NCBI GenBank assembly: GCA_027483445.1 | Contig: JAIXUS010000045.1 | Location: 124,001 to 188,000, forward strand | DNA: 64,000 nucleotides | Direction: 5' to 3' | Source of the DNA: Bacteroidota bacterium | Lineage (GTDB): Bacteria; Bacteroidota; Bacteroidia; M30B66 | Shown here: piece by piece, positions 7,816 through 27,262 of the stretch | Position numbering within the stretch: the first letter of the stretch is position 1 | Layout: the number at the start of each line of letters is the position of its first letter | Position numbers and translations under genes: made by a program | The notes under the pieces: generated by a model | Told to the model about the DNA's origin: nothing | The model's input: the letters and a program-made list of their open reading frames with translations, nothing else | Database searches by the model: none

Positions 7816-7836
7816 CCACGACGACTGATTTCTTCA

Positions 7837-10458: not shown

Positions 10459-10468
10459 AGAGGCTTGG

Positions 10469-10960
10469 ATGAATATCACCTGGCCCACCACACTGCCGCT
10501 GCCTTCGGTCGAAGGCTATGGCCTGACGCCCCAAGAAGCCGTGCTGCGCACCGACATGGAGTCGGGTCCTGCGCGCCAACGACGGCGCTTTCGGCAAACC
10601 CCCACGCGCATTACCGTGCGCTGGCTGTTCCTGGAGACCCAATTTGCGCTCTTCGAAGCTTGGTACAAGTACCACGCCGACGAGGGCGGCCAGTGGTTCG
10701 AGATCACCTTGCTCGGCGGCCTTGGCTTGCTGCCACACGAAGCCCGCTTCACCCGCCAGTTCGAAGCCCGCTTGTTGTCAGCGCGACGCTGGGAGGTCAA
10801 GGGTGAGCTGGAGATCCGTGAGCGTCCCACGCTCGATGAAGGCGCGCTCAACTTGCTGCTGGAGTTCGAGGCGCAAGACCTCTTTGCCATGGGCAGTGAA
10901 CTGCATCAGCTGGTGCACATCACCTTGCCATTGCGCTTACCTCTTTCTCACCCTGCTTAA
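10469..10960 (+). CDS. Minor tail protein (gpM-type position), function unknown
   Basis: A 163-residue protein directly after the tape measure gene, the place of lambda gpM at the distal tail. It contains EAVLRTDMESGPARQRRRF near residue 25, WLFLETQFALFEAWYKYH near residue 52, and a beta-rich RRWEVKGELEIRERPTLDEG near residue 115. I do not recognise a named family with certainty. Position indicates a structural protein of the tail tip. The start at 10469 follows AGAGG at 10458-10462. Confidence 0.58.
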   Translation: MNITWPTTLPLPSVEGYGLTPQEAVLRTDMESGPARQRRRFRQTPTRITVRWLFLETQFALFEAWYKYHADEGGQWFEITLLGGLGLLPHEARFTRQFEARLLSARRWEVKGELEIRERPTLDEGALNLLLEFEAQDLFAMGSELHQLVHITLPLRLPLSHPA

Positions 10961-10983
10961 AGCTGATCCCGGACCAATTCACC

Positions 10984-11622
10984 ATGAGCCTTCAAACCGA
11001 TTTGCACAATGCCGTCACGCAGGTGGCGGCTGACAGTGCGTTAATGCATGCCGTCGTGCATGGCGGCCCCCAAGATACCGTGATCACCGAAGGCGGCGTG
11101 GTCGTCACAGTCGCCAAGCTGCTGAACGATGCCGATGTGCGTATCAATGCGGCGGCAAGCGGCATCCTCGCGCAAAGCCAGGCAGCCGCCCAGGATGCGC
11201 TGACCTCGGCCGAACTCGCCGCCAGCGAAGCCGACCGTGCCCAGTCTGCGGCTAGCCAAGGTATCACCGACACGACTGCCGTCTTGCAACTGGTGCAGAG
11301 CAGCGGCAACCAGATTCTGGTCGATGCCGAAGATGTGCTGCAGCAGGTCATCACCCGCCTGCTGGCGGTGGGTTTGCCCGATGTGCTGACGGGTGCAAGG
11401 GGCATGCTCCTGAAGGTCAAGGCCGATGAATCCGGGTATGAACTGGTCCACACCGCTGCGTTGCCGCGCTTCTATGGGTTTCATCTGTCCAGTGATGGCT
11501 CGGAGCTGTTGCTGACTGAAGGGCGTGAGGAAGCGTTCAATAGCAGCGACTTCACTGCCTGGACGATCTCGGAAGGCGTGAGCTTTGCCGTGCAGAACAA
11601 CGCGCTGGAGGTACGGCTGTGA
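10984..11622 (+). CDS. Putative tail fibre or tail appendage protein
   Basis: A 212-residue protein. The middle (residues about 45-100) is very Ala-rich with heptad-like spacing (AQSQAAAQDALTSAELAASEADRAQSAASQ), which suggests a trimeric coiled coil. The C-terminal third (RFYGFHLSSDGSELLLTEG and onwards) is beta-rich and could be a small knob. Such helical stalk plus knob proteins are usual in tail fibres. The gene overlaps the next by four bases (GTGA), so it is probably co-translated with the first RCC1 propeller protein and may attach it to the tail. No specific family is recognised. Confidence 0.5.
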   Translation: MSLQTDLHNAVTQVAADSALMHAVVHGGPQDTVITEGGVVVTVAKLLNDADVRINAAASGILAQSQAAAQDALTSAELAASEADRAQSAASQGITDTTAVLQLVQSSGNQILVDAEDVLQQVITRLLAVGLPDVLTGARGMLLKVKADESGYELVHTAALPRFYGFHLSSDGSELLLTEGREEAFNSSDFTAWTISEGVSFAVQNNALEVRL

Positions 11623-13286: not shown

Positions 13287-13319
13287 ACCTTTTCAAATTC
13301 CACTCTTCAAGGACTGTTC

Positions 13320-14966
13320 ATGGGAACCGTTTCTCTGGGCAAGATTGCCTTTACCTGGCGCGGCGCGTATGACGCCAGCGCCATCTATGCCCGCCAGGAT
13401 GTGGTGAGCCACAACGGCGACAGCTTTGTGTGCCTGGTCGATGCCACCACGGGCGTGGCACCGCATGCGAGCTCACCGGCCTGGGATCTGTTTGCGCAAG
13501 GCACGCAAGGGGTGTCGAACCTACCCGGCGAAGTCATCTACTTCGATGGCAATCAGCTGGTCGCTTTACCGGTAGGCCAAACCGGGCAGGTGCTGACCAT
13601 CGGCGCGCAGGGTGTACCAGTTTGGGCCACGCCCGATGTGCGCTCAGGCACCAAGGCATTGAAGCTCCCGGAGAACGCGAGCAACACGCAGCCCAACAGC
13701 TACCGTCAGTTCGGTCTCATCATGACCGATGGCAGCATCCGCTCCTGGGGACGCAACGCCAACTGGAAGTTGGGGGATGGCACCACCTATGCGCGCTCCT
13801 ATCCGGCACGCACGGCGTTTCCGCCCGGGTTTCCGGGCGCGGCCAAGCTCTATTACAGCCATGACACCAATGGCTACTGCATCGACAAGAACGGTCAGCT
13901 CTGGGGTTGGGGCTACAACGGCTACGGTCAGCTGGCTAGCGGCAACACGACCAATCAGCCCGTGCCGTACAACATGAGTGCCAATGCCAGCAATTCGATT
14001 GCCGGCAAAACCGTGACTCAATTGGCGCTGAACTGCGGCACCGAGGGCTACAACAGCACGCTGGTGCTTTGTAGCGACGGGTCGGTGCACGCCTGTGGCT
14101 ACAACGGCTACGGTCAATTGGGTCTGGGCGACACCACCCAGCGCAACAACTTCGTGCAGTTGCCGGTCCTCGCTGGCATTACGCAGATTGCCGCCGGACG
14201 CGAGCGCTACACCGCCTGTTACGCGGTCAAGACCGACGGCACGCTGTACTCGTGGGGCTACAACGGCAACGGGCAACTGGGCGACGGCACCGCCAACCAG
14301 GCCAACGTCGCCATGCCACGCGCCGGTGGCAGCTTGGCTAGCAAAACCATTGTCAAGGTCTTCGGTGGCTATGTGCACGCTTTTGCGCTGGACAACACCG
14401 GTGCCCTGCATGCCTGGGGCACCAACGACTACGGTCAACTGGGCAACGGCAATCTCGCCAACCAGTTCACCCCGGTGCAGGTGGCGACCAATGTGGTCGA
14501 TGTCTACGCCGGCAGCTACGACTACCCGCTCACCTTTCTCAAGAAAACCGACAAGACACTGTGGGCCTGTGGCGCCGGTGCCTACTGGGGCAATGCCAAC
14601 GGCAGCAACAGCGGCAACTTCGTGCAAGTGCCGGTGGGCAACACCGTGGTCAAGGCCGTGCATGGAGGCACCGGGTCCTACAACTACGGCGCGGCCTTAC
14701 TGGAAAACGGCACTGTCTATGCGTGGGGCTACAACGGCAACGGCGCGCTGGGCCTGGGCGACGCCACCAACCGAAGCAGCGTGGAGCTGGTGCGCATCGC
14801 CCAGCGCCGGGTGGTGGATATCTCGTCCTACGGCTTGAGCTCCGAGCAGGGCCTGGTGTTTCTGCTCGACGACGGTCAGGTGCTGGCCAGCGGCTATGCA
14901 GGCGAGGCGCAATTGCCCGAGGACGATAGCGAAACCAGCTACGTCCCTTACCCGGTGATCCTGTAA
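13320..14966 (+). CDS. RCC1-repeat beta-propeller tail protein, copy 2, with carbohydrate-binding-like N-terminus
   Basis: A 548-residue protein. Residues 1-65 contain FTWRGAYDASAIYARQDVVSHNGDSFVCLVDA, the pattern of small chitin-binding or fibre-attachment modules (W-x-x-Y-x-x-Y-x-x-x-D-V-V). Residues about 110-545 carry at least six RCC1-type blades with near-identical turns such as WGYNGYGQLASGN, CGYNGYGQLGLGD, WGYNGNGQLGDGT, WGTNDYGQLGNGN and WGYNGNGALGLGD. The gene is downstream of copy 1 with a 33-base gap. Its blades are much more uniform than those of copy 1, suggesting recent internal duplication or gene conversion. Likely a receptor-binding tail component; function is inferred from place. 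Confidence 0.74.
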   Translation: MGTVSLGKIAFTWRGAYDASAIYARQDVVSHNGDSFVCLVDATTGVAPHASSPAWDLFAQGTQGVSNLPGEVIYFDGNQLVALPVGQTGQVLTIGAQGVPVWATPDVRSGTKALKLPENASNTQPNSYRQFGLIMTDGSIRSWGRNANWKLGDGTTYARSYPARTAFPPGFPGAAKLYYSHDTNGYCIDKNGQLWGWGYNGYGQLASGNTTNQPVPYNMSANASNSIAGKTVTQLALNCGTEGYNSTLVLCSDGSVHACGYNGYGQLGLGDTTQRNNFVQLPVLAGITQIAAGRERYTACYAVKTDGTLYSWGYNGNGQLGDGTANQANVAMPRAGGSLASKTIVKVFGGYVHAFALDNTGALHAWGTNDYGQLGNGNLANQFTPVQVATNVVDVYAGSYDYPLTFLKKTDKTLWACGAGAYWGNANGSNSGNFVQVPVGNTVVKAVHGGTGSYNYGAALLENGTVYAWGYNGNGALGLGDATNRSSVELVRIAQRRVVDISSYGLSSEQGLVFLLDDGQVLASGYAGEAQLPEDDSETSYVPYPVIL

Positions 14967-14979
14967 GTGATGGTGTCCA

Positions 14980-15522
14980 ATGCCGAACACTGCATTGTCA
15001 GAAGCGATCAAGGAGGCCTACGCCAGCGCTCCGTCCGAGCAGATCATCCTGCACACGCTGGAATTGCGCCATCCGGCCTTCGTCGATGATGCGGGTGCGC
15101 CGGTCGCCATCCGGGTAGTGCGTGACACCGGCGACCTGTGGGCCCGGCTGGAATCGAAAGCGCCGCTGCAAGCCGGTGAGCGCGTGCAGTTCGTCGCGAT
15201 GGGGTTTGAGCTGGACCTGCCGCCGGTCGATACCATGCCGGTGCCGGAAATCACGGTCACGCTGGACAACGTCTCGCGCGAAATCGTGCGTCATCTGGAT
15301 GCAGCGGCTGAGTCGCAATCGGTGATCGAAGTGACCTATCGGCCCTATCTCTCGACCGACCTGGAGGGTCCGCAAATGGACCCGCCGATTCACCTGGTCC
15401 TGACTGAGGTGGAAGCCGACATCTTCCGGGTGACAGGGCGCGCGCGCATGCTCGATGTGGGCAATAAAGCATTTCCGGGCATCAGCTACACCGCCAAAAC
15501 GTTTCCGGGGCTGACCCGATAA
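14980..15522 (+). CDS. DUF1833-family phage tail protein
   Basis: A 180-residue protein that begins with ALSEAIKEAYASAPSEQIILHTLELRHPAF, the characteristic opening of DUF1833 phage proteins. The rest is beta-rich (FELDLPPVDTMPVPEITVTLDN and FRVTGRARMLDVGNKAFPGISY). In related phages it sits between the tape measure and the NlpC/P60 gene, matching lambda gpL, a tail tip component. Here a toxin-antitoxin cassette has come between it and the NlpC/P60 gene. The family function is not established beyond tail tip assembly by position. Confidence 0.75.
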   Translation: MPNTALSEAIKEAYASAPSEQIILHTLELRHPAFVDDAGAPVAIRVVRDTGDLWARLESKAPLQAGERVQFVAMGFELDLPPVDTMPVPEITVTLDNVSREIVRHLDAAAESQSVIEVTYRPYLSTDLEGPQMDPPIHLVLTEVEADIFRVTGRARMLDVGNKAFPGISYTAKTFPGLTR

Positions 15523-15550
15523 CGGGCGCAGAACGACGTGCTTATCGTGT

Positions 15551-15871
15551 TTAACCGCGCGTGCCCCGACTGCGTTTGAAGGCCCGCAGCGTCTGGGCCG
15601 AGAACATCTGGTTGCGCCCCACGATGTGGCTGGGCACGAGCTTGCCTGATTGCACATAGCGGCGCAGCGTCGGAACGGAAATCTCCAGGTACTCGGCGGC
15701 TTCCCATGCAGAAAACGGTTCCTGATGGGTTTCGCCAAACACCTGCTCATGCGTGAAATCGTCTTCCCGAAACGCGTTGCTGGCCAACAGTGAAAAAAAC
15801 CTAACCCGCTCGGTGGTCGGCATCCGCTTCATCTCGGTGTAGAGGTCCTCGGCAGTGAGCGCGTGGTTCAT
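15551..15871 (-). CDS. Antitoxin with excisionase/MerR-type HTH domain
   Basis: A 106-residue protein on the minus strand. The C-terminal half contains a helix-turn-helix of the excisionase type: FSAWEAAEYLEISVPTLRRYVQSG, then KLVPSHIVGRNQMFSAQTLRAF. The N-terminal half is helical and acidic. It is the second gene of a two-gene cassette; its ATG overlaps the stop of the RelE-like gene (4-base overlap), which is the reversed toxin-first order seen in HigBA-type pairs. Antitoxins bind and inhibit the toxin and repress their own promoter. The in-frame open stretch upstream of 15871 is inside the toxin gene and is not used. Pairing with a toxin makes the call likely. Confidence 0.72.
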   Translation of the reverse strand: MNHALTAEDLYTEMKRMPTTERVRFFSLLASNAFREDDFTHEQVFGETHQEPFSAWEAAEYLEISVPTLRRYVQSGKLVPSHIVGRNQMFSAQTLRAFKRSRGTRG

Positions 15872-16191
15872 GGTGTTTCTCCCGTTGGCTTCTCGTGTCG
15901 CAAATACTGTTTCAGTTCGTCGTAGAAGTTCTCGTGAACGCCGACTTGGTAGAAATCGATGATCAAAAACTCCACGGGCGCGTTTTTGGCCGGCGGCCGG
16001 TAGGCCATCAGGTACTCCTGGCGGCTGAACCGGAACTTGTGAACCCGAATCCCGGCCAGGTCGCCCACCTTGAGTTCGCCAATCTCCGGCGCCTCGCACA
16101 CCACCTCCACCTCGTCTTCGATGGCCAGTCGCAAAGGCTTGTGCGCCTTCTTGACGTACTGGGCAAAGGGTCGTTTGAAGTTGGTCTGCAT
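15868..16191 (-). CDS. RelE/ParE-superfamily toxin
   Basis: A 107-residue basic protein on the minus strand. It has the RelE/ParE layout: N-terminal helices (FAQYVKKAHKPLRLAIEDEV), a strand pair with G-L-K-V-G-D-L-type text (GELKVGDLAGIRVHKFRF), then YLMAYRP and a C-terminal strand and helix (EFLIIDFYQVGVHENFYDEL). Members of this superfamily cut mRNA on the ribosome or poison gyrase; which one applies here cannot be read from sequence. It is followed with a 4-base overlap by an HTH antitoxin. The cassette is antisense to the phage tail operon, so it is probably a lysogenically expressed passenger (moron). Confidence 0.75.
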   Translation of the reverse strand: MQTNFKRPFAQYVKKAHKPLRLAIEDEVEVVCEAPEIGELKVGDLAGIRVHKFRFSRQEYLMAYRPPAKNAPVEFLIIDFYQVGVHENFYDELKQYLRHEKPTGETP

Positions 16192-16197
16192 GCGTCG

Positions 16198-16226
16198 ATA
16201 TTAGTGAAATAGTGATTCTATGTCAA
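16198..16226 (-). promoter_or_regulatory. Sigma-70-type promoter of the toxin-antitoxin cassette
   Basis: On the minus strand there is a perfect -35 hexamer TTGACA (16226-16221), a 17-base spacer, and a -10 of TAATAT (16203-16198; four of six match TATAAT). The expected start of transcription, about seven bases further, is at or within one or two bases of the toxin ATG (16191), so the message would have little or no leader. The -35 hexamer overlaps the start codon of the NlpC/P60 gene (16220-16222) on the other strand. Confidence 0.6.
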
Positions 16227-16660
16227 ATCATATAGGGATCAACACGAGTTCGTCCGCCCACTGGGCAGCCCAATACATCGGTCGGCCCTGGCACGCCGGT
16301 GCGCGTGGCCCGGATGCGTTTGACTGTTGGGGGCTGTTCCTCGCCATCCAGCACGCGCACTTTGGCCGCGATTTGCCGGAAATCCCGGTCGACGCCAACG
16401 ACCTGCGGACCGTGATGACCACCTTCCGAGATCACCCGGAGCGGGAACGTTGGTCCCTGGTAGTGCAACCCGCAGAGGGCGATGCCGTGCTGCTGCGTCA
16501 ATCCCGCCACCCGGTGCATGTCGGCGTTTGGCTCACCGTCGATGGCGGTGGCGTGCTGCACGCGGTCAAGGACGCGGGCGTCGTCTTCCAAAAGCTGCCC
16601 GAACTCCTGCTGCACGGCTGGCGGGTGGAGGGCTTCTATCAATTTGTGGAGTCGTTGTGA
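16220..16660 (+). CDS. NlpC/P60-family tail tip peptidase (gpK-like)
   Basis: A 146-residue protein with the NlpC/P60 cysteine peptidase core. The Cys is in PDAFDCWGLF (about residue 35), the His in HPVHVGVWL (about 96), and a third polar residue is in GVLHAVKDAGVV (about 110). In lambda-type tails, gpK belongs to the tail tip complex and may cleave peptidoglycan peptide links during DNA entry. The start at 16220 has no clear Shine-Dalgarno sequence, unusual for this operon, and lies just past the divergent toxin-antitoxin promoter. The GTG/ATG starts of the next gene follow its stop directly. Confidence 0.85.
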   Translation: MSNHIGINTSSSAHWAAQYIGRPWHAGARGPDAFDCWGLFLAIQHAHFGRDLPEIPVDANDLRTVMTTFRDHPERERWSLVVQPAEGDAVLLRQSRHPVHVGVWLTVDGGGVLHAVKDAGVVFQKLPELLLHGWRVEGFYQFVESL

Positions 16661-16686
16661 TCGAGGGCAATCCAAGAGCAGTGATC

Positions 16687-18939
16687 ATGCTGCGCAATCC
16701 GTTCCAGCCCAGCCAGCGCGAGGTGATGGTGGCCCACCCGAGCCAGACCATCCGCCAATGGCTCGGCACCCATGGCATTGCCGAGTTCGATCAACCGACC
16801 GTCTGCATCAAGAACGGCACGCCGGTGCTGCGTGCCGACTGGGCGGTCACGCCCATCGATGGAGTGGTGCTCTTCATCACCCTGCCGCAGGGTGGCGGAG
16901 GTGGAGGAAGCGGCGGCAAAAACCCGTTGCGTACCGTCCTGATGATCGCGGTGATGGTGGTGGCGACCGTCTATGGCGGCCCCTTGGGTGCCAGCCTGGG
17001 TTTCAGCGGCAACCTGGCCACGGCCATCGGTTCGGCCATCATCATGACGGCGGGTTCCGCCTTGGTCAGTGCGCTGGTGCCACTACCCACGCCCAACATG
17101 CCGTCCTTTGCTGCCGGTGGGGGTAACCTGACGCAACCGTCACCCACCTACAGCCTGCAAGGCCAGGGCAACTATGCGCGGCTGGCCCAACCCATCCCGG
17201 TCATCTACGGTCGCCATCTGGTCTATCCGGACCTGGCCGCCACGCCCTGTGGCGAATACCAAGGCAACGAGCAGTACCTGCACCAGTTGCATTGCATTGG
17301 TCTGGGCGAATACGACATCGAGCAGATGCGCATCGAAGACACGCCCATTGCCTCGTTCGAGGAGGTCACCTACCAGATCGTCCCGCCGGGCAGTCCGGTC
17401 ACGCTGTTCAACCCAGATGTGGTCACCGCCCCTGAGGTGGCCGGACAGGAACTGCTGGCTGGTACCTGGACTGGGGGATTTGCCATCAACCCGGCCGACA
17501 GCGAGGTGACGCACATCGGCATCGACATCCTGCTGCCACGTGGGCTGTACTACGCCAACGACGCTGGTGGATTGGACAGCCGCAGTGCCAGCTGGCGAGT
17601 CGAAGCCCGCGCCATCGATGCCGAGGGTGACGCGCTGGGCGATTGGTTCACCCTGGGCAGTGAAAGCCTGACGGCCGCGACCACCACGCCGCAGCGCCTG
17701 TCCTACAAATACCCAGTTGCCGCAGGGCGCTACGAGGTGCGCGCCACACGGCTAGATGGGAAGGACACCAACTCACGTGCTGGTCACGAAGTGCGCTGGG
17801 GCGAGGCCCGTGGCTACCTGGCTGGTGGCGTCACCTTCCCCGGCAACGTGACACTGCTCGCGATCCGCATGCGCGCCACCGACAACCTGTCGCAGCGCTC
17901 GAGCCGCCTGATCAACTGCATCGTCTCGCGCAAGCTGCCGGTTTGGTCGGCCGAAGCGGGATGGTCAACGCCGGTACCCACGCGCTCGATCGCCTGGGCC
18001 TTCGCCGACATCCTGCGCGCTAGCTACGGTGCGAAGTTGCCAGATGCCCGGATCGATCTCGCCGCCTTGGCGCAACTCGATGAGGTCTGGTCCAGTCGGG
18101 GCGATCAATTTGATGGTGTCTTCGACCAGCAGGTGACGGTGTGGGAAGCCCTGACCCGGGTCGCCCGTTGTGGGCGGGCGGTACCGTTCCTCCAAGGCGG
18201 CATCGTGCGCCTGGTGCGCGATGAAGCCCGGTTGCTGCCGGTCGCGCTCTTCAGTCCGCGCAACATCGTCAAGAACAGCCTCAAGATCCAGTACGTGATG
18301 CCGGGTGAGGAAACCGCCGATGCAGTCACGGTGGAGTTCTTCAGCAGCCGCACCTGGAAACCGGATGAAGTCACGGTGAGCCTGCCGGGATCCAGTAGCG
18401 CCAACCCGGCCAAGCTGCGCCTCTTCGGTTGTACGACCGAAGCCCATGCCATTCGGGAGGGGCTGTACCTGGCCGCCGCCAATCGCTACCGCCGCCGCAT
18501 CATCACCTTGCGCACCGAACTGGAAGGCCTGATTCCCACCTATGGCGATCTGATTGCAATTGCCCATGACATGCCCAGTTGGGGCACGGGTGGCGAGATC
18601 GTCGCCTGGGATGCGGCCAGTCAAATCGCCACGCTCTCCGAGCCGGTCGTCTTTACGGATACGCAGCCGCATGTGATGGCCTTGCGCCGTCGCGATGGCG
18701 GCGTCAGCGGACCGCATGCCGTGACCCCGGGTAGCGATGCGCAGCAGGTGATCTTTGCCGATCTGCCTGATATCTCCATTGAAACCGGCCTGTCGGCCGA
18801 ACGCACCCATTTCGCTTTCGGCATCGCCGAGCAGTGGAGTTTGCTGGCCCGAGTCATTGCCGTACGTCCGCGTGGCGAGCAGGTGGAAATCACCTGTGTG
18901 GCCGAGCACCCGGCCGTGCACAGCGCCGATCACGTTTGA
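16687..18939 (+). CDS. Tail tip protein J / host specificity protein (TipJ type)
   Basis: A 750-residue protein from the ATG at 16687; a GTG at 16657 overlapping the NlpC/P60 stop is an alternative. Residues 1-75 resemble the ubiquitin-like gpI fold (VMVAHPSQTIRQWLGTHGI, and GVVLFITLPQ at the end), followed by a Gly-rich linker (GGGGGGSGGK) and a hydrophobic segment (about 85-140). From about residue 140 the text LQGQGNYARLAQPIPVIYGRH and YPDLAATPCGEYQGNEQYLHQL matches tail tip J proteins. The rest is beta-rich with a typical C-terminal part. J-type proteins form the tip and recognise the receptor. The gpI-like part appears fused, which is noted as a finding. Confidence 0.82.
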   Translation: MLRNPFQPSQREVMVAHPSQTIRQWLGTHGIAEFDQPTVCIKNGTPVLRADWAVTPIDGVVLFITLPQGGGGGGSGGKNPLRTVLMIAVMVVATVYGGPLGASLGFSGNLATAIGSAIIMTAGSALVSALVPLPTPNMPSFAAGGGNLTQPSPTYSLQGQGNYARLAQPIPVIYGRHLVYPDLAATPCGEYQGNEQYLHQLHCIGLGEYDIEQMRIEDTPIASFEEVTYQIVPPGSPVTLFNPDVVTAPEVAGQELLAGTWTGGFAINPADSEVTHIGIDILLPRGLYYANDAGGLDSRSASWRVEARAIDAEGDALGDWFTLGSESLTAATTTPQRLSYKYPVAAGRYEVRATRLDGKDTNSRAGHEVRWGEARGYLAGGVTFPGNVTLLAIRMRATDNLSQRSSRLINCIVSRKLPVWSAEAGWSTPVPTRSIAWAFADILRASYGAKLPDARIDLAALAQLDEVWSSRGDQFDGVFDQQVTVWEALTRVARCGRAVPFLQGGIVRLVRDEARLLPVALFSPRNIVKNSLKIQYVMPGEETADAVTVEFFSSRTWKPDEVTVSLPGSSSANPAKLRLFGCTTEAHAIREGLYLAAANRYRRRIITLRTELEGLIPTYGDLIAIAHDMPSWGTGGEIVAWDAASQIATLSEPVVFTDTQPHVMALRRRDGGVSGPHAVTPGSDAQQVIFADLPDISIETGLSAERTHFAFGIAEQWSLLARVIAVRPRGEQVEITCVAEHPAVHSADHV

Positions 18940-18950
18940 AAGGAAAAAAG

Positions 18951-19241
18951 ATGAACGAACCCCACCTGATCGATGGCATGGTGGTCATGCCCCATGATGA
19001 ATTCGAGACCCTGCTGGAGCGCGCAGCCGAGCGGGGTGCGCGCCACGCCTTGTCCGATGTTGGTCTCGACGGGCCGGACGCCGCCCGAGACATCCGCGAG
19101 CTGCGCAGCCTGCTCGATGCCTTCAACGAGGCCAAGAAAACCGCCGGCCTAACCCTCGTCAAGATGCTCGTCACGGGTCTCGTTCTAGCCCTCTTGGCCG
19201 GCACCATCGTCAAAATCAAACTGTTCGGAGGCCCGCAATGA
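18951..19241 (+). CDS. DUF6127-type small membrane protein of the lysis region
   Basis: A 96-residue protein. Residues 1-65 are soluble and charged with a helical DIRELRSLLDAFNEAKKTAG; residues about 70-92 form one transmembrane helix (MLVTGLVLALLAGTIVKI). This is the layout of DUF6127 proteins found next to 3TM holins in prophages and gene transfer agents. Its exact role is unknown; it could assist the holin or anchor something. The start at 18951 has AAGGAAAAAAG just before it. Its stop overlaps the holin start (ATGA). Confidence 0.62.
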   Translation: MNEPHLIDGMVVMPHDEFETLLERAAERGARHALSDVGLDGPDAARDIRELRSLLDAFNEAKKTAGLTLVKMLVTGLVLALLAGTIVKIKLFGGPQ

Positions 19242-19666
19242 GCCCGATCTTCACCACCCTAGCGCCCGGCCTCTTCGAAGCCGGTGCCAAACTCATCGAC
19301 CGACTGATTCCCGATCAGGCGCAGCGCGAGCAGGCCAAACTCGCCTTGTTCCAAGCCGAAGGTCAGCAGGCTTTGCAGGAAATGCAGGTGAGCCTCTCGG
19401 CCATTCTGGCTGAGGCCAACTCGGCGGACCCATGGACCAGCCGGGCGCGGCCCACCTTCCTGTATGTGATCTACGGCGTGATCCTGCTGTCGGTGATCGG
19501 CAGCATTATCGGTATCTGGTGGCCGGCTGAAGTCTTCCAGGCAGCCGAGAATCTGTCCAAGCTGCTTAATGCCGTGCCGGAGAGCCTGTGGTGGCTCTTC
19601 GGTGCCGGCTACCTTGGCTACACCGGCGCACGCAGTTTCGATAAGTGGCGTGGCGTGCCGCGATAA
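19238..19666 (+). CDS. Holin of the 3TM family
   Basis: A 142-residue protein with FEAGAKLIDRLIPDQAQREQAK and a long helix in the first half (residues 15-60), then DPWTSRARPTFLYVIYGVILL leading into a strong membrane segment (about 70-95) and a second one (WWLFGAGYLGYTGARS, about 117-135). The DPWTSRARP run before the membrane part is a hallmark of the 3TM holin family known from gene transfer agents and siphophages. Holins time lysis by making pores for the endolysin. No endolysin gene follows. The operon terminator starts 62 bases after the stop. Confidence 0.83.
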   Translation: MSPIFTTLAPGLFEAGAKLIDRLIPDQAQREQAKLALFQAEGQQALQEMQVSLSAILAEANSADPWTSRARPTFLYVIYGVILLSVIGSIIGIWWPAEVFQAAENLSKLLNAVPESLWWLFGAGYLGYTGARSFDKWRGVPR

Positions 19667-19885: not shown

Positions 19886-20803
19886 ATGGCCCCGCGCCTG
19901 CTGACCTCACCGCAAGCGGCCGAGCGTCTGGGCCTGCCGGTGCAGGCGCTCTACAAGCTGCGCGATGCCGACGAGGGTCTGGCCATCACCCAGACCGGCC
20001 TGCAGGTCGGCTACCAGCTTGAAGACATCCAGGCTTATGAGCGCCGCGAGATGCTGGCCCTGGTGGAAAAGACCCTGGCGGCCGAACGACCGCTGCCGCT
20101 GATCCGAGCCATGGCGCAGCTGCTTCGCTCGCCGCCGCCGGCCGATGGATGGCCTGTACCCACGCCCAGCCCGAAACCGAAGCCCTTACCGCCGTCCGCT
20201 CCCCCGTCCGATCCCCCCAAGCGGGTGCTAGCGACCGAGCCCGCAGCAGCCGACGCACCGGTACTTGATCCACCTGCACCGGCAGTTCACACCCCGCCCA
20301 GCTCCATGGCCTGGTTCCTCGTGCGCAGCAAACCCCGGCAGGAATCAGTGGCACTCACCCATCTCGCCCGCCAAGGCTACGAGTCCTACCTCCCCCTGTT
20401 CGCCTCCGAAAAGCTCGTCCGCCGCAAACCCACGGTCGTGCAAGAACCCATGTTCGCGCGCTACCTCTTCGTGCGGCTCGACACCTCGGGAAACGGCCAA
20501 AGCTGGAGCCCGATCCGGTCGACGGTCGGTGTCAGCGAATTGGTCTCCTTCGGCAGCCGACCCGCTCGGGTCGATGCGGCCCTGATTACCAGTCTGCGCG
20601 AACGCGAAATGGCGCAGCAGGCCGATCCCGACGCCTTGTTCGCTGCTGGCGACAGCGTGCGCATCACCGAAGGGGCGTTTGCCGGGCTGGAGGCGATCTA
20701 CCAGATGAACGACGCGGAGGGCCGCGCCATGGTGCTGCTGGACCTCCTGAGCAAACCCGTGGCCATGACGATCGACGCAGCCAGACTGCGCAAGGTGGGG
20801 TGA
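19886..20803 (+). CDS. HTH-NusG fusion protein (RfaH-like antiterminator with N-terminal DNA-binding domain)
   Basis: A 305-residue protein in three parts. Residues about 4-55 form an excisionase/MerR-type helix-turn-helix (TSPQAAERLGLPVQALYKLR, then GYQLEDIQAYERRE). Residues about 85-145 are a Pro/Ala-rich linker. Residues about 147-305 are a complete NusG-type unit: NGN domain (MAWFLVRSKPRQESVALTHL, FARYLFVRLD) and KOW domain (GDSVRITEGAFAGLEAIYQ). The NusG part is clearly similar to the stand-alone RfaH-like protein at 24694. NusG paralogues bind RNA polymerase and suppress pausing and termination. The HTH would give it a DNA address; that is inference. The ATG at 19886 is preferred over open frame further upstream, which runs through the terminator hairpin. 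Confidence 0.8.
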   Translation: MAPRLLTSPQAAERLGLPVQALYKLRDADEGLAITQTGLQVGYQLEDIQAYERREMLALVEKTLAAERPLPLIRAMAQLLRSPPPADGWPVPTPSPKPKPLPPSAPPSDPPKRVLATEPAAADAPVLDPPAPAVHTPPSSMAWFLVRSKPRQESVALTHLARQGYESYLPLFASEKLVRRKPTVVQEPMFARYLFVRLDTSGNGQSWSPIRSTVGVSELVSFGSRPARVDAALITSLREREMAQQADPDALFAAGDSVRITEGAFAGLEAIYQMNDAEGRAMVLLDLLSKPVAMTIDAARLRKVG

Positions 20804-20937
20804 TGCATGACCACACACCGCCTGCCTGCGCCACTTTATCTCGGCGGTATCCCCTGCATGACCTTGATACGGCTTGGCCTTCGAAGCCAACATGGACCGA
20901 CACAACAAAAAGACTGATCGATCATGGCATTGACTGA
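20803..20937 (+). CDS. Possible 44-codon coupling ORF between HTH-NusG and recombinase genes
   Basis: An ATG at 20803 overlaps the stop of the HTH-NusG gene (TGATG) and opens a 44-residue frame that ends at 20937, 14 bases inside the recombinase gene. The recombinase start at 20924 has no clear Shine-Dalgarno sequence, so this frame could bring ribosomes to it. The peptide (rich in Pro, Thr, Asp) resembles nothing I know. It may be chance; confidence is low. Confidence 0.22.
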   Translation: MHDHTPPACATLSRRYPLHDLDTAWPSKPTWTDTTKRLIDHGID

Positions 20938-22492
20938 CACCACCACCGACGTCCAACCCAACACCAAACCCTTCCGCGCCGCGCAGTACGTGCGCATGTC
21001 CACCGAGCACCAGCAGTATTCGACGCTCAACCAGGCCGACAAGATTCTCGAGTACGCGCAAAAGCGAGGGATTGAAATCGTGCGCACCTATGCCGACGAC
21101 GGCAAGAGTGGGCTTTCCATCGGCGGTCGCGCCTCCCTGCAACGGCTGATCGCCGACGTCGAATCCGGCAACACCGATTTCAATCTGATCCTGGTCTACG
21201 ACGTTAGCCGCTGGGGACGGTTTCAGGATGCGGATGAATCCGCCTATTACGAGTACATCTGCAAACGCAACGGCATCAGCGTTGCCTATGTCGCCGAGCA
21301 GTTTGAAAACGATGGCTCTCCCGTCTCCACCATCGTCAAGGGCGTCAAGCGCGCCATGGCCGGCGAGTACAGCCGCGAGCTTTCGGCTAAGGTCTTTGCC
21401 GGCCAGTGCCGATTGATCGAACTGGGTTTCCGCCAGGGCGGCCCGGCCGGCTTTGGTCTGCGCCGGGTGCTGGTCGACCAGACCGGTGCCATCAAGGCCA
21501 CCTTGAAACCCGGTGAACACAAAAGCCTGCAAACCGACCGGGTGATTTTGGTGCCGGGGCCAGAGTCCGAAGTGGCCATCGTCAACCGGATCTACCGCTG
21601 GCTGGTCGATGACGATCTGCCCCTAGCTGAAATCGCTCAGCGGCTCAACGACATCCCCGTTTACACCGATCGTGATTGCCCCTGGACCTACAGCACGGTG
21701 CGCCAGGTGCTGACCAACGAGAAGTACATCGGTAACAACGTCTACAACCGCCATTCCTTCAAGCTCAAGAAAAAGCACGTCGACAACCCGCCGCAGATGT
21801 GGATCCGCAAGCAAGGGGCATTCGAGGGGGTCGTGCCGCTGGACACCTTCATGGCCGTGCAGGAAATCCTGGCCGAGCGCAGTCGCCGATTCTCAGATGA
21901 GGAGCTTCTGGAACATCTGCGGGCTCTGTACCAGGAGCGCGGCACCCTCTCGGGCCTGATCATCAATGAGGCCCCTGCACTGCCAAGTGCCGCCACCTAC
22001 ATCCAGCGCTTTGGCAGCTTGAGCAAAGCCTATGAACTGGTGGGCTTTCGCCCCGGGCGCGATCTTGAATTTCTCGAAATCAACCGGCGCCTGCGCCAGT
22101 TGCATCCGGAAATCGTCGAACGCACCCAGCACACGATCGCCGAGCTGGGCGGCGAAATCTGGCGCGACCCGCAAACCGACCTGCTGCACCTGAACCAGGA
22201 ACTGGTCATCAGCCTGGTGCTTGCACGCTGCCAGCAATTGCCCAATGGCCTGCAGCGCTGGCGCATCCGCTTTGACCCCAGTCGCTACCACCCGGACATC
22301 ACAGTGGCTGTGCGGCTTGATCCCGGCAATGCCGCTGAACTCGATTACTACCTGCTGCCACGCCTGGACCTGCCCAGTCAGGAATTACAGGTGACAGCGC
22401 GCAACAGCGCCGAGATCGAATGCTTCCGCTTTGACGACCTGAACTTCTTCTACGGCATGTCCGAGCGCGAACGCCTGCAACGACGCATTTGA
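20924..22492 (+). CDS. Large serine recombinase / site-specific integrase-type
   Basis: A 522-residue protein of the large serine recombinase class. The catalytic domain (about residues 18-165) has the nucleophile Ser26 in AAQYVRMSTEHQQ, conserved YADDGKSGLSIGGRASLQRLI near residue 63, and VYDVSRWGRF near residue 92. A recombinase domain follows (about 180-300) with GFRQGGPAGFGLRR and STVRQVLTNEKYIGNNVYN. The C-terminal 200 residues lack the Cys-rich zinc ribbon of many phage integrases. These enzymes join or excise DNA at specific att sites. It is followed by two ParB/RepB-like genes, an arrangement that suggests one functional cassette. Target sites are not identifiable here. Confidence 0.88.
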   Translation: MALTDTTTDVQPNTKPFRAAQYVRMSTEHQQYSTLNQADKILEYAQKRGIEIVRTYADDGKSGLSIGGRASLQRLIADVESGNTDFNLILVYDVSRWGRFQDADESAYYEYICKRNGISVAYVAEQFENDGSPVSTIVKGVKRAMAGEYSRELSAKVFAGQCRLIELGFRQGGPAGFGLRRVLVDQTGAIKATLKPGEHKSLQTDRVILVPGPESEVAIVNRIYRWLVDDDLPLAEIAQRLNDIPVYTDRDCPWTYSTVRQVLTNEKYIGNNVYNRHSFKLKKKHVDNPPQMWIRKQGAFEGVVPLDTFMAVQEILAERSRRFSDEELLEHLRALYQERGTLSGLIINEAPALPSAATYIQRFGSLSKAYELVGFRPGRDLEFLEINRRLRQLHPEIVERTQHTIAELGGEIWRDPQTDLLHLNQELVISLVLARCQQLPNGLQRWRIRFDPSRYHPDITVAVRLDPGNAAELDYYLLPRLDLPSQELQVTARNSAEIECFRFDDLNFFYGMSERERLQRRI

Positions 22493-22530
22493 TCCGATTC
22501 ACCATCACCCACCCAGAAAGGACCCCTGCC

Positions 22531-22581
22531 ATGACACCACGCCAGCCCCAACCACACACCGATAGGAGCCCCCCATGCTGA
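22531..22581 (+). CDS. Possible 16-codon leader ORF upstream of the first ParB-like gene
   Basis: ATG at 22531 is preceded by a good Shine-Dalgarno sequence (AGAAAGGA, 22515-22522, eight bases away) and encodes a Pro-rich 16-residue peptide that ends at 22581, overlapping the start of the ParB-like gene at 22575. Such short overlapping leaders can couple or tune translation. No family is known; it could be fortuitous. Confidence 0.25.
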   Translation: MTPRQPQPHTDRSPPC

Positions 22582-23474
22582 CCGATACCCCCGAAACCGT
22601 CACCCTGATCCCGATCGCCCGCGTGGAGATCCTCAACTCCCGCGAACGCAATATGAAAATCTTCGAGGATATCGTCGAGAACATCAAATCGATCGGCTTA
22701 AAGAAACCCATCACCGTCACCGAACGCCCCGGCGACGATGGCCAGCCGAAATACCTGCTGGTCTGCGGCGAGGGGCGATTGAATGCCTTCCGCATCCTGG
22801 GCGAAACCCACATCCCCGCCCTGGTGGTCGATGTCAGCGATGAAGACGCCTTCATCATGAGCCTGGCCGAGAACATCGCCCGGCGCGGCCACCGACCCCT
22901 GGAAATCTTGGCCGACATCGAAATCCTGCGCAAACGCGGCTACGACGCCGACACCATCATCCACAAAACCGGCCTCTCGCCCAAGTACGTCAAGGACATC
23001 GTCTTCCTGCTCGACCAGGGGGAGGAGCGTCTGATCGAAGGCGTGCAGCGCGGCGCAATCCCACTCACCACCGCCCTGGAGATTGCCCGCGCCAAGGACG
23101 ATGACGAAAGCCTGGGCGAAATGCTCCAGGAGGCCTACGAAAACGGCCAACTCAACCGGCGTCAGATCATCGAGACCAAGCGCCTCGTCGAAAAGCGACA
23201 GGAACACGGCCCCGGCTCGCCGAACCCCGGCCAGATCAAGCCGCCCACCTCCAGCTACAGCCTGGTGCGGACCTACCAGCGTGAAGTGGAGCGGCAGCGC
23301 AAGATGGTCTTGAAAGCCGAGCATGCGCACCAGCGCCTGCTGTTGGTTGTCCAGGGCCTGAAAAAACTCTTCGGCGACGAGCATTTCGTCAACCTGCTGC
23401 GCGCCGAGGGGCTGGACACCCTGCCCAAGTACCTCGCTGAGCGTATCGATAACTTCAATGGAGCCCCCGTATGA
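22575..23474 (+). CDS. ParB/RepB-like protein 1 (ParB N-terminal domain)
   Basis: A 299-residue protein. Residues about 10-105 form a ParB N-terminal domain: IPIARVEILNSRERN, then GLKKPITVTERPG, the ParB box equivalent CGEGRLNAFRILGE and SLAENIARR. An HTH-like stretch follows (about 120-150, GYDADTIIHKTGLSPKYVKDIV). The C-terminal part has long charged helices, including EVERQRKMVLKAEHAHQRLL. ParB domains bind CTP in chromosome and plasmid partition proteins and bind specific DNA; here no ParA and no replication gene accompany it. The stop overlaps the start of a second ParB-like gene by four bases. AGGAG at 22564-22568 precedes the start. Confidence 0.8.
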   Translation: MLTDTPETVTLIPIARVEILNSRERNMKIFEDIVENIKSIGLKKPITVTERPGDDGQPKYLLVCGEGRLNAFRILGETHIPALVVDVSDEDAFIMSLAENIARRGHRPLEILADIEILRKRGYDADTIIHKTGLSPKYVKDIVFLLDQGEERLIEGVQRGAIPLTTALEIARAKDDDESLGEMLQEAYENGQLNRRQIIETKRLVEKRQEHGPGSPNPGQIKPPTSSYSLVRTYQREVERQRKMVLKAEHAHQRLLLVVQGLKKLFGDEHFVNLLRAEGLDTLPKYLAERIDNFNGAPV

Positions 23475-24598
23475 ACCCCGCGAGCAATGCACAACCCAAG
23501 ATCACGCCGATGTACCCCGGTATCCATCAATCCGATTCGGAGGACGGTCCCGATTTACCCAAGGCGCCCTTGAACACCTTGCTCGGGTTCGATCTGGAAA
23601 CCTACCAGATCCCGCTTGACACCCTGATGCCCAGCAAGCGCATCCCCGACGGGGTCATGAGCACCCGCAAATACAAGCAGATCGTCTCGTCCATCCATGA
23701 AATCGGCCTGATCGAACCCCTATCCGTGATCCAGCACGACCCGGCCAAGCCGGAATTCATCCTGCTCGATGGGCATTTGCGGGTGCTGGCTTTGAAGGAC
23801 CTGGGCGTCCATGAAGCCCCCTGCCTGCTGGCCAAGGACGACGAGACGTACACCTACAACCACCGGATCAACCGGCTCTCGACCATCCAGGAACATTACA
23901 TGATCCGCCGCGCCATCGACCGAGGGGTGAGCAAGGAACGCCTGGCCCGGGCCTTTGGCGTGAACCTGAGTTCTATCAACCGGCGCATCAGCCTTCTGGA
24001 AGGCATTTGCCCTGACGCGATTGCCCGCCTGCAGGACAAGCAGTTCACCCCGGATGTGACCCGGGTGCTGCGCAACATGAAAGCCGCCCGGCAGGTGGAG
24101 GCGGTGGAACTGATGGTCGCCAGCAACACCATCACCGTGGCGCATGCCGATGCCCTGCTGAAAGCCACGCCACCGGAGCAACGCACCGACTTCAAACCCG
24201 CTGAACGCGACCGGCAACTGGCGCCCATCGAGCAGATCGTCAAACTCGAAAAGGAAATGAGCCAGGTCCAAACCCAGTACAAGGACGCTGAAGAGAACTA
24301 CGGCTCCGATTTGCTGAACCTGGTGGTTGCCAAAGGCTACTTGACCAAGCTACTCGGTAACGATGCCGTCAAAAGTTACATCACCCGACACGAACCCGAA
24401 ATCCTCGAGCATTTCGAACTGGTGGTGAACACCGTCAGCATGGAGGAAGCCGTGCAGCAGCAACTGGAGGCCGATGGCGAATTCGAGGAGGATCCGGACG
24501 CCGACAGCGATGCCCCACGTACCACTGACAACACCCACCCTGATTCCAAGAATGGCAACGAAACCCCAGTGCCAGGAGAGAACGCCGCCACCGAATAG
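23471..24598 (+). CDS. ParB/RepB-like protein 2 (RepB C-terminal domain type)
   Basis: A 375-residue protein. The ParB N-terminal domain covers about residues 40-135 (DTLMPSKRIPDGVMSTRKY, LLDGHLRVLALKDLG). An HTH region follows (about 150-175, SKERLARAFGVNLSSINRRI). The rest (about 180-340) matches the RepB-type C-terminal domain, with QFTPDVTRVLRNMKAARQVE, QTQYKDAEENYGSDLLNLV and LTKLLGNDAVKSYI. The last 35 residues are acidic and disordered. RepB proteins bind centromere-like sites in repABC plasmids, but no repA or repC is present. It overlaps the first ParB-like gene by four bases, so the pair is one translation unit and may work as a heteromer. Confidence 0.82.
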   Translation: MNPASNAQPKITPMYPGIHQSDSEDGPDLPKAPLNTLLGFDLETYQIPLDTLMPSKRIPDGVMSTRKYKQIVSSIHEIGLIEPLSVIQHDPAKPEFILLDGHLRVLALKDLGVHEAPCLLAKDDETYTYNHRINRLSTIQEHYMIRRAIDRGVSKERLARAFGVNLSSINRRISLLEGICPDAIARLQDKQFTPDVTRVLRNMKAARQVEAVELMVASNTITVAHADALLKATPPEQRTDFKPAERDRQLAPIEQIVKLEKEMSQVQTQYKDAEENYGSDLLNLVVAKGYLTKLLGNDAVKSYITRHEPEILEHFELVVNTVSMEEAVQQQLEADGEFEEDPDADSDAPRTTDNTHPDSKNGNETPVPGENAATE

Positions 24599-24631
24599 AA
24601 AACCCAAACCATGTGAGCGATGGGAATCCCA

Positions 24632-24661
24632 TTGCCGCGCCGCAATCCCGAAGGGTAAAAT
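24632..24661 (+). promoter_or_regulatory. Candidate sigma-70 promoter for the rfaH-like gene
   Basis: TTGCCG at 24632-24637 (four of six match TTGACA), an 18-base spacer, then TAAAAT at 24656-24661 (five of six match TATAAT). The start codon of the rfaH-like gene is 33 bases downstream. The region lies in the 95-base gap after the second ParB-like gene. Prediction by eye only. Confidence 0.42.
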
Positions 24662-24693
24662 GCTGACAATAAAGATAACCTTCGGAGGTGGCG

Positions 24694-25191
24694 ATGCACT
24701 GGTATCTCGTTCATACCAAGCCAAGGCAGGAAAAGTGCGCCCTCGAAAACCTCGATCGGCAGGGTTATCAGTGCTACCTCCCGACGATTCCCTCTGAGAG
24801 GCTCCGCCAAGGATTGCTAACCGTTGCGGATGAGCCGCTGTTCCCGCGTTACTTGTTCATCCGCCTGGGGCAGGGGGATTCGGCCAAGAGCTGGGCGCCG
24901 ATCCGTTCGACCAAGGGCGTCAGTCGTCTGGTCAGCTTCGGGGTAGAACCGGCGCGGGTCGATGATGGCCTGATCGAACTGTTGCGAACACAAGAAGCAT
25001 CAGTACAAACTGAGCCGGAGCGGCTGTTCAAGACCGGGGAGCGTGTGCGCCTGACCGAAGTGCCGTTTGCCGGCATTGAGGGCATCTACCAAATGGCAGA
25101 CGGCGAGCGCCGGGTCATGGTGCTGATCGAGATTCTTAGCAAGCCTGTCGCAGTGCGCGTTGCGCCGGCCAGTTTACGCAAGGCGAGTTGA
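24694..25191 (+). CDS. rfaH: RfaH-like specialised NusG paralogue, transcription antiterminator
   Basis: A 165-residue protein, the size of E. coli RfaH (162). The NGN domain (1-105) starts MHWYLVHTKPRQEKCALENL and has the conserved PLFPRYLFIRL near residue 50; the KOW domain (about 112-165) has GERVRLTEVPFAGIEGIYQ. RfaH loads onto RNA polymerase paused at an ops element and keeps it transcribing long surface-polysaccharide operons; its KOW domain can also recruit ribosomes. An exact ops element lies 170 bases after this gene, in front of the polysaccharide operon, which supports RfaH rather than general NusG. ATG 24694 is chosen with GGAGG at 24684-24688; a GTG at 24688 is less likely. Confidence 0.87.
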   Translation: MHWYLVHTKPRQEKCALENLDRQGYQCYLPTIPSERLRQGLLTVADEPLFPRYLFIRLGQGDSAKSWAPIRSTKGVSRLVSFGVEPARVDDGLIELLRTQEASVQTEPERLFKTGERVRLTEVPFAGIEGIYQMADGERRVMVLIEILSKPVAVRVAPASLRKAS

Positions 25192-25360: not shown

Positions 25361-25372
25361 GGCGGTAGCGTG
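25361..25372 (+). promoter_or_regulatory. ops element (RfaH recruitment site)
   Basis: GGCGGTAGCGTG matches all 12 bases of the enterobacterial ops element and is followed by CTTATTTTC, as in ops regions where a T-rich stretch follows. It is on the coding strand of the downstream operon, 102 bases ahead of the ABC transporter start, and 170 bases after the rfaH-like gene. Known role: RNA polymerase pauses here and RfaH binds the exposed non-template strand. Confidence 0.85.
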
Positions 25373-25474
25373 CTTATTTTCCCAATGCGTGACTTCTCGC
25401 CTCTAGGTTCTCCTGAGTTCCGGGTGTGCGGCCTATTTTCATTTTTAGCCCACCGCCATCTAATTGAATAGCAA

Positions 25475-27262
25475 ATGAGATTGTCGTATTTGCTCCTCCG
25501 CCTTTGGCATCATATCGGCCCTTGTCGAAGAAGGCAGTTTTTCGCTATAGCGGTGCTCATGGTCGTTGCGGCAATCGCAGAGGTAGTCAGCCTTGGCGCA
25601 GTGTTACCGTTTCTTGGAATGCTTGCCTCACCGGATACCGTACTTAAATACCCGCTCATTCAAGAGGTAGAGAGAATACTTCCGGGGGGCCAGGAAAAAT
25701 TAGTAGTCTTTTTTACCGTGATGTTCATCGTTGCTGCCGTGGTTGCAGGTGCAGTGCGTTTGCTGCTGCTGTGGGCAACTACTCGTGTCGCTTTTGGCGC
25801 AGGGTCTGATCTTAGTATTGAGTTGTATCGTCGCACGCTGCATCAGCCCTATGAGGCGCATATAAGCCGCAACAGCAGCGAGGTGCTAAGCGGAGTTGGA
25901 AAGGTGGGCGGAGCTATGAATATACTCTCCCAATGCCTGATCCTGGCAAGTTCATTGATTCTGATGGTGGCCATTGCGGCGACTCTATTGGCGATGGATC
26001 CACCTGTCGCCATCGTATCGATCGTTGGATTCGGCCTAAGCTACAGTGTTATCACATTTATTGCGCGGCACAAATTGCGCCGCAACGGTTCGATCATCGC
26101 TAATGAACAGACGCGCGTCTTCAAGATCCTGCAGGAAGGGCTGGGCGGTATCCGCGATGTCTTGTTGGACGGCACCCAGAAGATTTACTGTGACACATAC
26201 CAGCAAGCTGATCTCCCTTTGCGGAGAGCGCAGGGAAACAATCTTTTTATTGCCGCTAGTCCACGTTTCGTGATGGAAACGCTCGGCTTGGTGATGATCG
26301 CCGTGCTGGCTCTAGTTCTCAGCAAGCAGCCACAAGGCATTACAGCTAGTTTGCCGATGCTTGGCGCCCTAGCCTTAGGGGCGCAGCGACTGCTTCCCGC
26401 TCTGCAACAGGCATATGGTGCCTGGGCCACGATCGTTGGAAGCCAAGCTTCGCTAGCGGACACCATCGATCTCCTCGAACAGCCTATTCGGGCCGAGATG
26501 TTGCAGTCGGCGCCTGAGCCTATGCAATTTCGCGAAGCTATCCGCTTTAAGGGCGTGAATTTTCGCTACACCGAGGATGGTCCCTGGGTCGTACGCAATC
26601 TCGATTTCATAATTCCCAAAGGTAGTCGCATCGGTCTGGTGGGTGCGACGGGCAGTGGCAAGAGCACAACGCTCGATATCCTGATGGGCCTCCTGAGGCC
26701 TACCGAAGGCCAGCTATTGATCGATGGCTATTCGTTGGACGGCGATCTCATGCGTGCTTGGCGGCGCACCATAGCCCACGTGCCGCAGAGTATTTATCTG
26801 AGCGATGCCAGCTTTATCGAAAACATTGCTTTCGGCATTCCTCTCGAGCAAATTGATTTCGAGCGAGTGAAGTTGGCCGCGAAGCAGGCGCAGATCGCCG
26901 ACTTCATCGAAAGCTCTCCGCAAGGCTACCGGACACCGGTTGGCGAACGCGGTATGCGCCTGTCCGGCGGTCAGCGACAGCGAGTAGGCATTGCGCGCGC
27001 GCTGTACAAGCAAGCCAGCGTCCTGATCTTCGACGAGGCCACGAGCGCCCTCGACAACGCGACGGAAAGTTCTTTGATGGAATCGATCGAAGCGCTCAAT
27101 CGCGACTTGACTATTCTGCTGGTCGCGCACCGTCTGACCACCGTACGCCAGTGCGATGTGGTGGTCGAGATTAAGGAGGGCTCGATACATGCGCAAGGCG
27201 ACTACGACAGCCTGCTGCGCAAGAGCGCTTCCTTTCGGCGCTTGGCTGGAGAGGCGACCTGA
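25475..27262 (+). CDS. PglK-type ABC transporter, probable lipid-linked oligosaccharide flippase
   Basis: A 595-residue half-transporter: membrane domain (about residues 15-335, several hydrophobic segments) followed by an ATPase domain. Walker A GATGSGKST is at about 390, the ABC signature LSGGQRQRVGIARAL at about 495, Walker B VLIFDEATSALD at about 513 and the H-loop VAHRLTT near 550. This layout fits PglK/WlaB flippases, which move undecaprenyl-linked glycans across the inner membrane; lipid A exporter MsbA is the alternative. It is first in the operon after ops, and no Wzx-type flippase is seen in the window, so it probably supplies that step. The ATG at 25475 overlaps GC-poor leader DNA with no strong RBS. 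Confidence 0.85.
   Translation: MRLSYLLLRLWHHIGPCRRRQFFAIAVLMVVAAIAEVVSLGAVLPFLGMLASPDTVLKYPLIQEVERILPGGQEKLVVFFTVMFIVAAVVAGAVRLLLLWATTRVAFGAGSDLSIELYRRTLHQPYEAHISRNSSEVLSGVGKVGGAMNILSQCLILASSLILMVAIAATLLAMDPPVAIVSIVGFGLSYSVITFIARHKLRRNGSIIANEQTRVFKILQEGLGGIRDVLLDGTQKIYCDTYQQADLPLRRAQGNNLFIAASPRFVMETLGLVMIAVLALVLSKQPQGITASLPMLGALALGAQRLLPALQQAYGAWATIVGSQASLADTIDLLEQPIRAEMLQSAPEPMQFREAIRFKGVNFRYTEDGPWVVRNLDFIIPKGSRIGLVGATGSGKSTTLDILMGLLRPTEGQLLIDGYSLDGDLMRAWRRTIAHVPQSIYLSDASFIENIAFGIPLEQIDFERVKLAAKQAQIADFIESSPQGYRTPVGERGMRLSGGQRQRVGIARALYKQASVLIFDEATSALDNATESSLMESIEALNRDLTILLVAHRLTTVRQCDVVVEIKEGSIHAQGDYDSLLRKSASFRRLAGEAT

Follow-up and report, generated by a model that had tools for sequence, protein, structure and literature searches.

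Large serine integrases, such as SPbeta YokA, Bxb1, phiC31 and A118, are built on a catalytic domain and a recombinase domain. Large serine recombinases are also used by the SCC elements (Ccr), which, like the integrons, associate a recombinase unit with an adjacent site of variable cargo. Proteins of the ParB/Noc/KorB group are CTPase clamps possessing a ParB N domain and a helix-turn-helix (HTH), and in the polysaccharide operons of the RfaH-ops/JUMPstart type a canonical, RfaH-recruiting ops element precedes the sugar operon. The present analysis deals with a five-gene cassette (positions 19886-25191) that recalls these systems, located in a stretch of 64,000 nucleotides, hereafter the window, from a Bacteroidota bacterium (assembly GCA_027483445.1, 4.26 Mb; contig JAIXUS010000045.1, designated C67, of which the window represents C67:124001-188000). 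The core of the cassette is a triad of genes encoding a serine recombinase, a ParB-domain protein (ParB A) and a RepB-type ParB protein (RepB B). With about even confidence, this triad is considered here as a conserved module for recombination, marking, and probably also creating, the exchange point of phage-resistance cargo.

Compared to integrons and SCC elements, the locus is devoid of a cargo array with visible sites, and no attC-like or attSCC-like repeats were found in it. To our knowledge, ParB partners are absent from both integrons and SCC elements. A description of the triad was not found in the open-access literature searched, the phage WO paper mentioning a separate methylase/ParB gene and not with a recombinase-ParB-RepB triad. 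The parts belong to known families; as far as could be tested here, novelty lies in their combination, in the altered C-terminus of the recombinase and in the association with two kinds of phage-resistance cargo.

The triad as a co-inherited unit

The three core genes, all located on the forward (+) strand, encode a serine recombinase of 522 amino acids with an atypical C-terminal half (20924..22492; PF00239, PF07508), ParB A (22575..23474; PF02195 and PF07506, with the CTPase motifs GEGR and ENIARR) and RepB B (23471..24598; PF02195 and PF07506, 3.5e-36), the last two overlapping by 4 bp (ATGA). They are bracketed by two further forward-strand genes of the NusG family, an HTH-RfaH gene (19886..20803; PF02357 and a weak HTH_17, the open frame beginning earlier, at 19766) and a second RfaH (NusG/RfaH-like) gene (24688..25191; PF02357). 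The domains and coordinates that the initial annotation gave for these five genes were borne out, together with the prophage on their left and the sugar operon on their right.

The triad occurs in bacterial as well as viral sequences, well over a hundred in all, with 120 complete loci exhibiting the same gene order, and the predicted conserved co-occurrence of the recombinase with ParB and RepB genes is far above chance. Pattern scanning across 84,980 species, each represented by a single genome, yielded at least 578 relatives of the recombinase; among the best 80, which were examined, a ParB gene directly follows the recombinase in 80/80 and a RepB gene is present, at least in part, in 76/80, the remaining four loci being cut by contig ends or broken. 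Across the 120 complete triads, the pairwise distances seen with any one of the proteins go with those seen with the other two (correlations of 0.91, 0.92 and 0.95). On plasmids of Alpha- and Betaproteobacteria, the triad usually displays start/stop overlaps or gaps of a few bases and occurs without NusG or phage genes. In viral contigs, the triad is found as long as the recombinase is at least about 53% identical, and is absent once identity falls to about 46% or lower. In the source organism's own family, the RepB gene is absent from nine other genomes examined. Recombinase, ParB A and RepB B form a single tightly packed, co-inherited operon, and this triad, rather than the NusG genes, is the general unit. 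Several copies are broken (loci L024, L028, L062, L076, L110, L266, L267 and L271, in our numbering of the loci compared), so that the module is dispensable, a property shared by mobile and accessory modules.

Directly upstream of the recombinase, 50 loci, many of them betaproteobacterial (e.g., L007:8905-9330), contain a fourth gene encoding a Cys-rich, zinc-ribbon-like protein of about 140-160 amino acids (named by eye), with the pattern CSACGQTFHPRPQVPDQ..CS..C and no match in Pfam or NCBIfam, and a DUF3987-like gene (also named by eye) occurs downstream of the triad in one subgroup. Beside the triad, L081, L064, L091 and L097 harbor further clustered recombinases or a second whole triad. 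The viral contigs L169-L175 contain serine recombinases paired in tandem, with about 41% identity to that of the window and no ParB genes.

The serine recombinase

The recombinase contains both PF00239 (4.1e-21) and PF07508 (4.2e-21) domains, and the catalytic Ser26, the residues around it, and Arg69, Arg96 and Arg99 are invariant in 33 recombinase sequences. In a structure model (mean pLDDT 77, pTM 0.47), residues 14-319 align to the SPbeta integrase with a Z score of 17.9, and the fold search extends the likeness to large serine integrases to about residue 320. Profile matches include YokA, TP901-1 and TnpX, together with CcrB (2.5e-14), the latter over the catalytic region only. Among 28 C-terminal halves no conserved Cys pair was found that could provide zinc ligands, a single Cys being near-invariant, and no Pfam zinc-ribbon match occurs. 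By sequence, the protein thus possesses both domains typical of large serine integrases but lacks their zinc-ribbon/coiled-coil part, no integrase coiled coil being seen beyond residue 320.

In contrast to these integrases, residue 320 is followed by a helical homing-endonuclease-associated repeat, a weak PF18780-like match below the cut-off of that family, and by a mixed alpha/beta domain (385-514), and the recombinase is accompanied by constant ParB and RepB partner genes. In the model of pTM 0.47, the best fold match of the C-terminal domain is I-Ssp6803I (2ost; 118 residues, Z 9.4, rmsd 3.6), a domain of Eco15I being matched with a Z score of 7.0; by sequence, nothing credible was found among solved structures, the best match (CyaY) having an E value of 0.017. 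The modelled domain possibly has the core fold of a PD-(D/E)xK homing endonuclease. Asp458 and Asp474 are invariant but, in contrast to I-Ssp6803I, the lysine of the PD-(D/E)xK motif is not conserved (DYY/DYF). With this lysine and the zinc ligands both missing, DNA binding is likelier than cleavage, and the domain may serve for binding only.

The ParB A and RepB B proteins

ParB A aligns to Spo0J/Noc through both CTPase boxes, GEGR and ENIARR, and its motifs suggest a CTP-dependent clamp. In RepB B, aligned to Noc, the glycine and arginine of box I are kept, and a tyrosine replaces the glutamate of box II. The model of RepB B displays a long C-terminal helix (252-296), which is probably a coiled coil. 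Both proteins share the ParB N domain and the HTH of the ParB/Noc/KorB clamps but differ from them by the lack of ParA and of a known parS, by their operon with a recombinase and, for RepB B, by the lost box II glutamate. No ParA is annotated beside the triad in the plasmid loci inspected, and none occurs among the genes of the window. Searches of the triad proteins against the PADLOC defence families gave no match for the recombinase, ParB A and the zinc-ribbon-like protein, and only a weak methyltransferase match for RepB B.

A conserved motif containing an imperfect inverted repeat, CTTGATACGGCTTGGCCTTCGAAGCCAACAT (20863..20893, + strand), is a candidate operator, ParB site or recombination arm. 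Of the 20 loci of the clade that were scanned, which range from Alpha- to Betaproteobacteria, 19 contain it shortly 5' of the recombinase, the sole exception being L024, where the recombinase is truncated. In the genome of the window, the motif is restricted to the two copies of the cassette, once in each, and in L109, L110 and L128 the left flanks diverge shortly upstream of it.

Cassette ends and variable cargo

In the sister clades, the unit exhibits sharp ends on both sides, unchanged in unrelated surroundings at 85-95% identity and the same across many contexts. Depending on the group, the right end is located about 230 bp past repB, where GCCGCTGG..CAGCGGCACC ends (group A, 7 loci), or about 1470 bp past repB, where TTTCGC repeats end (group B), and the left ends lie near -650. 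The right edge of group A forms an imperfect inverted repeat, which folds 4 SD better than shuffled sequences in one variant and not significantly better in another. Near-identical cassettes differ in their right flank in 19/21 and 20/21 pairs (shared in 2/21 and 1/21), and in their left flank in 7/10 and 9/15 pairs (shared in 3/10 and 6/15).

The initial annotation described the cassette as free of cargo, a view that does not hold on a wider scale, the right flank being variable cargo. A PADLOC defence family was recognized in the large right-hand gene of 15 of the 17 loci tested, the first batch of cargo genes being hand-picked and the second, of eight, picked by length from a mechanically made list. 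The right-hand families comprise Wadjet, BREX, DISARM, Hma, Druantia, DUF499, HerA and type I/II/III restriction-modification systems, and near-identical triads abut different defence systems at the same junction. On the left side, AbiE-like genes are often found. Near-identical units are followed, directly on the right, by different cargo, consisting of defence systems in one large clade and of a sugar operon behind ops in the clade of the window.

The sugar-locus clade and its RfaH genes

In a FastTree phylogeny of the recombinase, the window falls inside a clade of 19 rows (support 100) that ranges from alpha to beta/gamma and covers Rhodobacterales and Betaproteobacteria. Clade members with enough sequence adjoin sugar genes encoding a UDP-sugar dehydrogenase, a mannose-1-phosphate guanylyltransferase, epimerases, glycosyltransferases and a MarR_EPS regulator, and nearly all readable members also possess an RfaH-type gene, located on the same strand in the betaproteobacterial loci and divergent in the alphaproteobacterial ones. 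Such sugar clusters occur in none of the other 101 loci, and the placement before a surface-sugar locus noticed initially is a conserved feature of this one clade.

Both NusG proteins exceed the cut-off (144.5 bits) of the NCBIfam RfaH equivalog TIGR01955, with 157 bits (19886-20803) and 167 bits (24688-25191), and are RfaH proteins, of the ordinary paralogue kind. The position of the first gene is kept in the betaproteobacterial part of the clade, a divergent RfaH-like gene occurring in the alphaproteobacterial part; this HTH-RfaH gene (19886-20803) belongs to the head of the sugar locus, outside the core triad. The second gene, on the cassette side of ops, is present in the nearest relatives L024, L025, L107 and L108, its place being taken by a MarR_EPS-type gene in L026, L109 and L117.

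The ops element GGCGGTAGCGTGC (25361..25373, + strand), single in the genome, coincides with a homology breakpoint between loci, and an ops element also occurs just 3' of the cassette in nine related loci. Among close loci, the alignment spans the cassette together with the RfaH gene and, in most pairs with different cargo, breaks off 10-22 nt beyond the ops start; it continues past ops where two loci share their first genes. This stop just past the start of ops therefore separates a constant head, to which the triad belongs, from a sugar operon that can be replaced, and the two NusG genes are accordingly explained as the RfaH paralogues of that operon. On the variable side, the first gene of the operon encodes an ABC exporter (25475..27262, + strand; PF00005, PF00664), and the genes located 3' of it look, by sequence, like a sugar nucleotidyltransferase, a sugar kinase and NeuB-like proteins.

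The arrangement resembles the RfaH-ops/JUMPstart operons by its RfaH equivalogs and its canonical ops before a sugar operon, but differs from them in that RfaH is encoded beside its target with the triad inserted between. The NusG genes, initially viewed as part of the arrangement, belong to it in this clade, as ordinary RfaH paralogues with ops, and not in the sister clades, which are devoid of NusG; a role of the RfaH gene as a family-wide partner of the triad was accordingly rejected. In the family of Tepidicella, a strong HTH-RfaH match was found in 6 of 401 genomes and, of the five outside Tepidicella itself, two contain the cassette and three do not.

Alternative explanations

Several points weigh against a triad that exchanges cargo. 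The main doubt comes from homologous recombination in the conserved head or flanks, which could give the same pattern without the recombinase, JUMPstart/ops borders being known places of exchange. The sequences compared revealed no recombination event, excised circle or att pair; no second copy of the cassette end motif, which would mark the far end of the cargo, occurs within the fetched flanks. The enrichment in defence systems (15/17) was established without a matched control of other recombinase loci. No direct repeat longer than 13 bp joins the ends of the window prophage, where only chance 13-mers were detected. The L049 island of Thauera, compared with a 97% identical island-free relative, starts at the 3' end of a tRNA-Phe, 5.1 kb from the cassette. 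Finally, the tie of the ParB proteins to recombination is hypothetical.

Among the alternatives, a prophage or island integration module, made of a serine integrase and two accessory proteins located beside its att site, is a rather unlikely candidate. The triad follows the tail and holin genes in the window prophage and in closely related viral contigs, an alphaproteobacterial group of phages resembling gene transfer agents (GTA) carries it near one end, and the sharp ends of the cassette would suit such a module. However, another serine recombinase occurs upstream of the window prophage (C67:104983), in the members from Rhodobacterales the sugar loci with the triad are free of phage genes, and the outer end of the L049 island at the tRNA-Phe suggests that the island as a whole depends on a different integrase. 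The att-like repeats that the initial annotation proposed to look for were found neither at the prophage ends nor in the fetched flanks. In general, the triad is probably not the integrase of a prophage or an island.

Still less likely is a self-moving transposable unit of 4-5.5 kb, comprising recombinase, ParB, RepB and often the Cys-rich zinc-ribbon-like and DUF3987-like proteins, which would land in islands with the cargo as a bystander. In its favour are the two ends that recur at 85-95% identity in otherwise unrelated loci, the additional copies that some genomes contain and the eight broken copies listed above, but the variable cargo is concentrated on the side of repB, and random landing would not predict that one clade always sits just before a sugar operon. 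As for empty sites, also suggested in the initial annotation, none bounded by both cassette ends was found, the Thauera comparison giving the island end at the tRNA-Phe.

Phase switching of the sugar operon through DNA inversion, evoked initially and compatible with a serine recombinase beside a surface locus with RfaH and ops nearby, is very improbable, since the region 19660-26000 contains no inverted site pair beyond short chance-like matches, the conserved motif is single-copy in each cassette, and the sugar operons differ between loci by replacement and not by inversion. As for a plasmid partition remnant beside an unrelated recombinase, which the PGAP names (plasmid partitioning proteins) and the many plasmid-borne relatives might suggest, it is hardly credible, and the constant gene order without ParA already disproves it as a general explanation: as initially noted, no ParA, relaxase or replication gene accompanies the triad, and the neighbouring genes inspected include no ParA. 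The operon invariably begins with the recombinase, whose evolution parallels that of both ParB genes, and many copies reside in chromosomal islands and prophages.

Genomic environment of the cassette

The left part of the window (1..19666, + strand) corresponds to the right part of a tailed prophage, with portal, protease, tape measure, minor tail/tail tip and holin genes. The same contig contains a second, inverted copy of the prophage, RfaH, triad and RfaH (C67:10760-39325), which shares a fairly even 84% DNA identity with the window across 28.7 kb, the similarity stopping at window position 25370 and extending on the left beyond the window start. This second cassette is close to a Wadjet-type Jet locus (C67:2301-9025). 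Adjacent to the second prophage, at its left end, three tandem tyrosine recombinases (C67:40177-43329; PF00589 in 3/3) form a RIT-like element. A third related prophage (C67:43402-70072; 67-69% DNA identity), without HTH-RfaH and triad, ends in a lysis-like gene set. Near the packaging end of the prophage, a ParB-domain DNA methyltransferase (C67:118003-119295) is unrelated to the ParB genes of the triad. Two further PF07508 serine recombinases occur on the contig (C67:195768 and C67:225461). Inside or after the sugar locus, the GC content of window positions 53000-57000 falls to 43-50%, versus 57-62% around. The related prophages of L266 and L267 possess a radical-SAM-like gene between tail genes.

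Proposed mechanism and significance

That the exchange of cargo is performed by this recombinase, at which sites, and every role of the ParB proteins, are inferred. As a recombination module, the triad would operate as follows: the recombinase would act at the right-hand border of the unit to join cargo arriving there, ParB A would load at the motif that precedes the operon, and ParB A together with RepB B would bridge or order the two sites and control their pairing or direction, standing in for the control of synapsis and direction that the coiled coil gives to ordinary integrases. Our guess is that RepB supplies the coiled coil missing from the recombinase. Both proteins may also repress the operon, and RfaH with ops would serve the sugar operon only.

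A bolder possibility, which we advance tentatively and regard as rather doubtful, is that of a new class of ParB-assisted serine recombinase forming a cargo-exchange platform devoted to phage resistance, in which CTP-switched clamps and a coiled-coil RepB replace the synapsis domain, with defence systems as the swapped cargo of one lineage and surface polysaccharide operons as that of another. If ParB-type CTP clamps do control a recombinase, the ParB switch would thereby gain a new function, and the enzyme would be a serine recombinase of a new form. With respect to the swapping of defence systems and surface-sugar loci at fixed chromosomal places, the widespread three-gene unit offers a concrete enzyme candidate, and the triad may help bacteria to swap their phage-resistance genes, either those of the cell-surface sugars or those of anti-virus defence.

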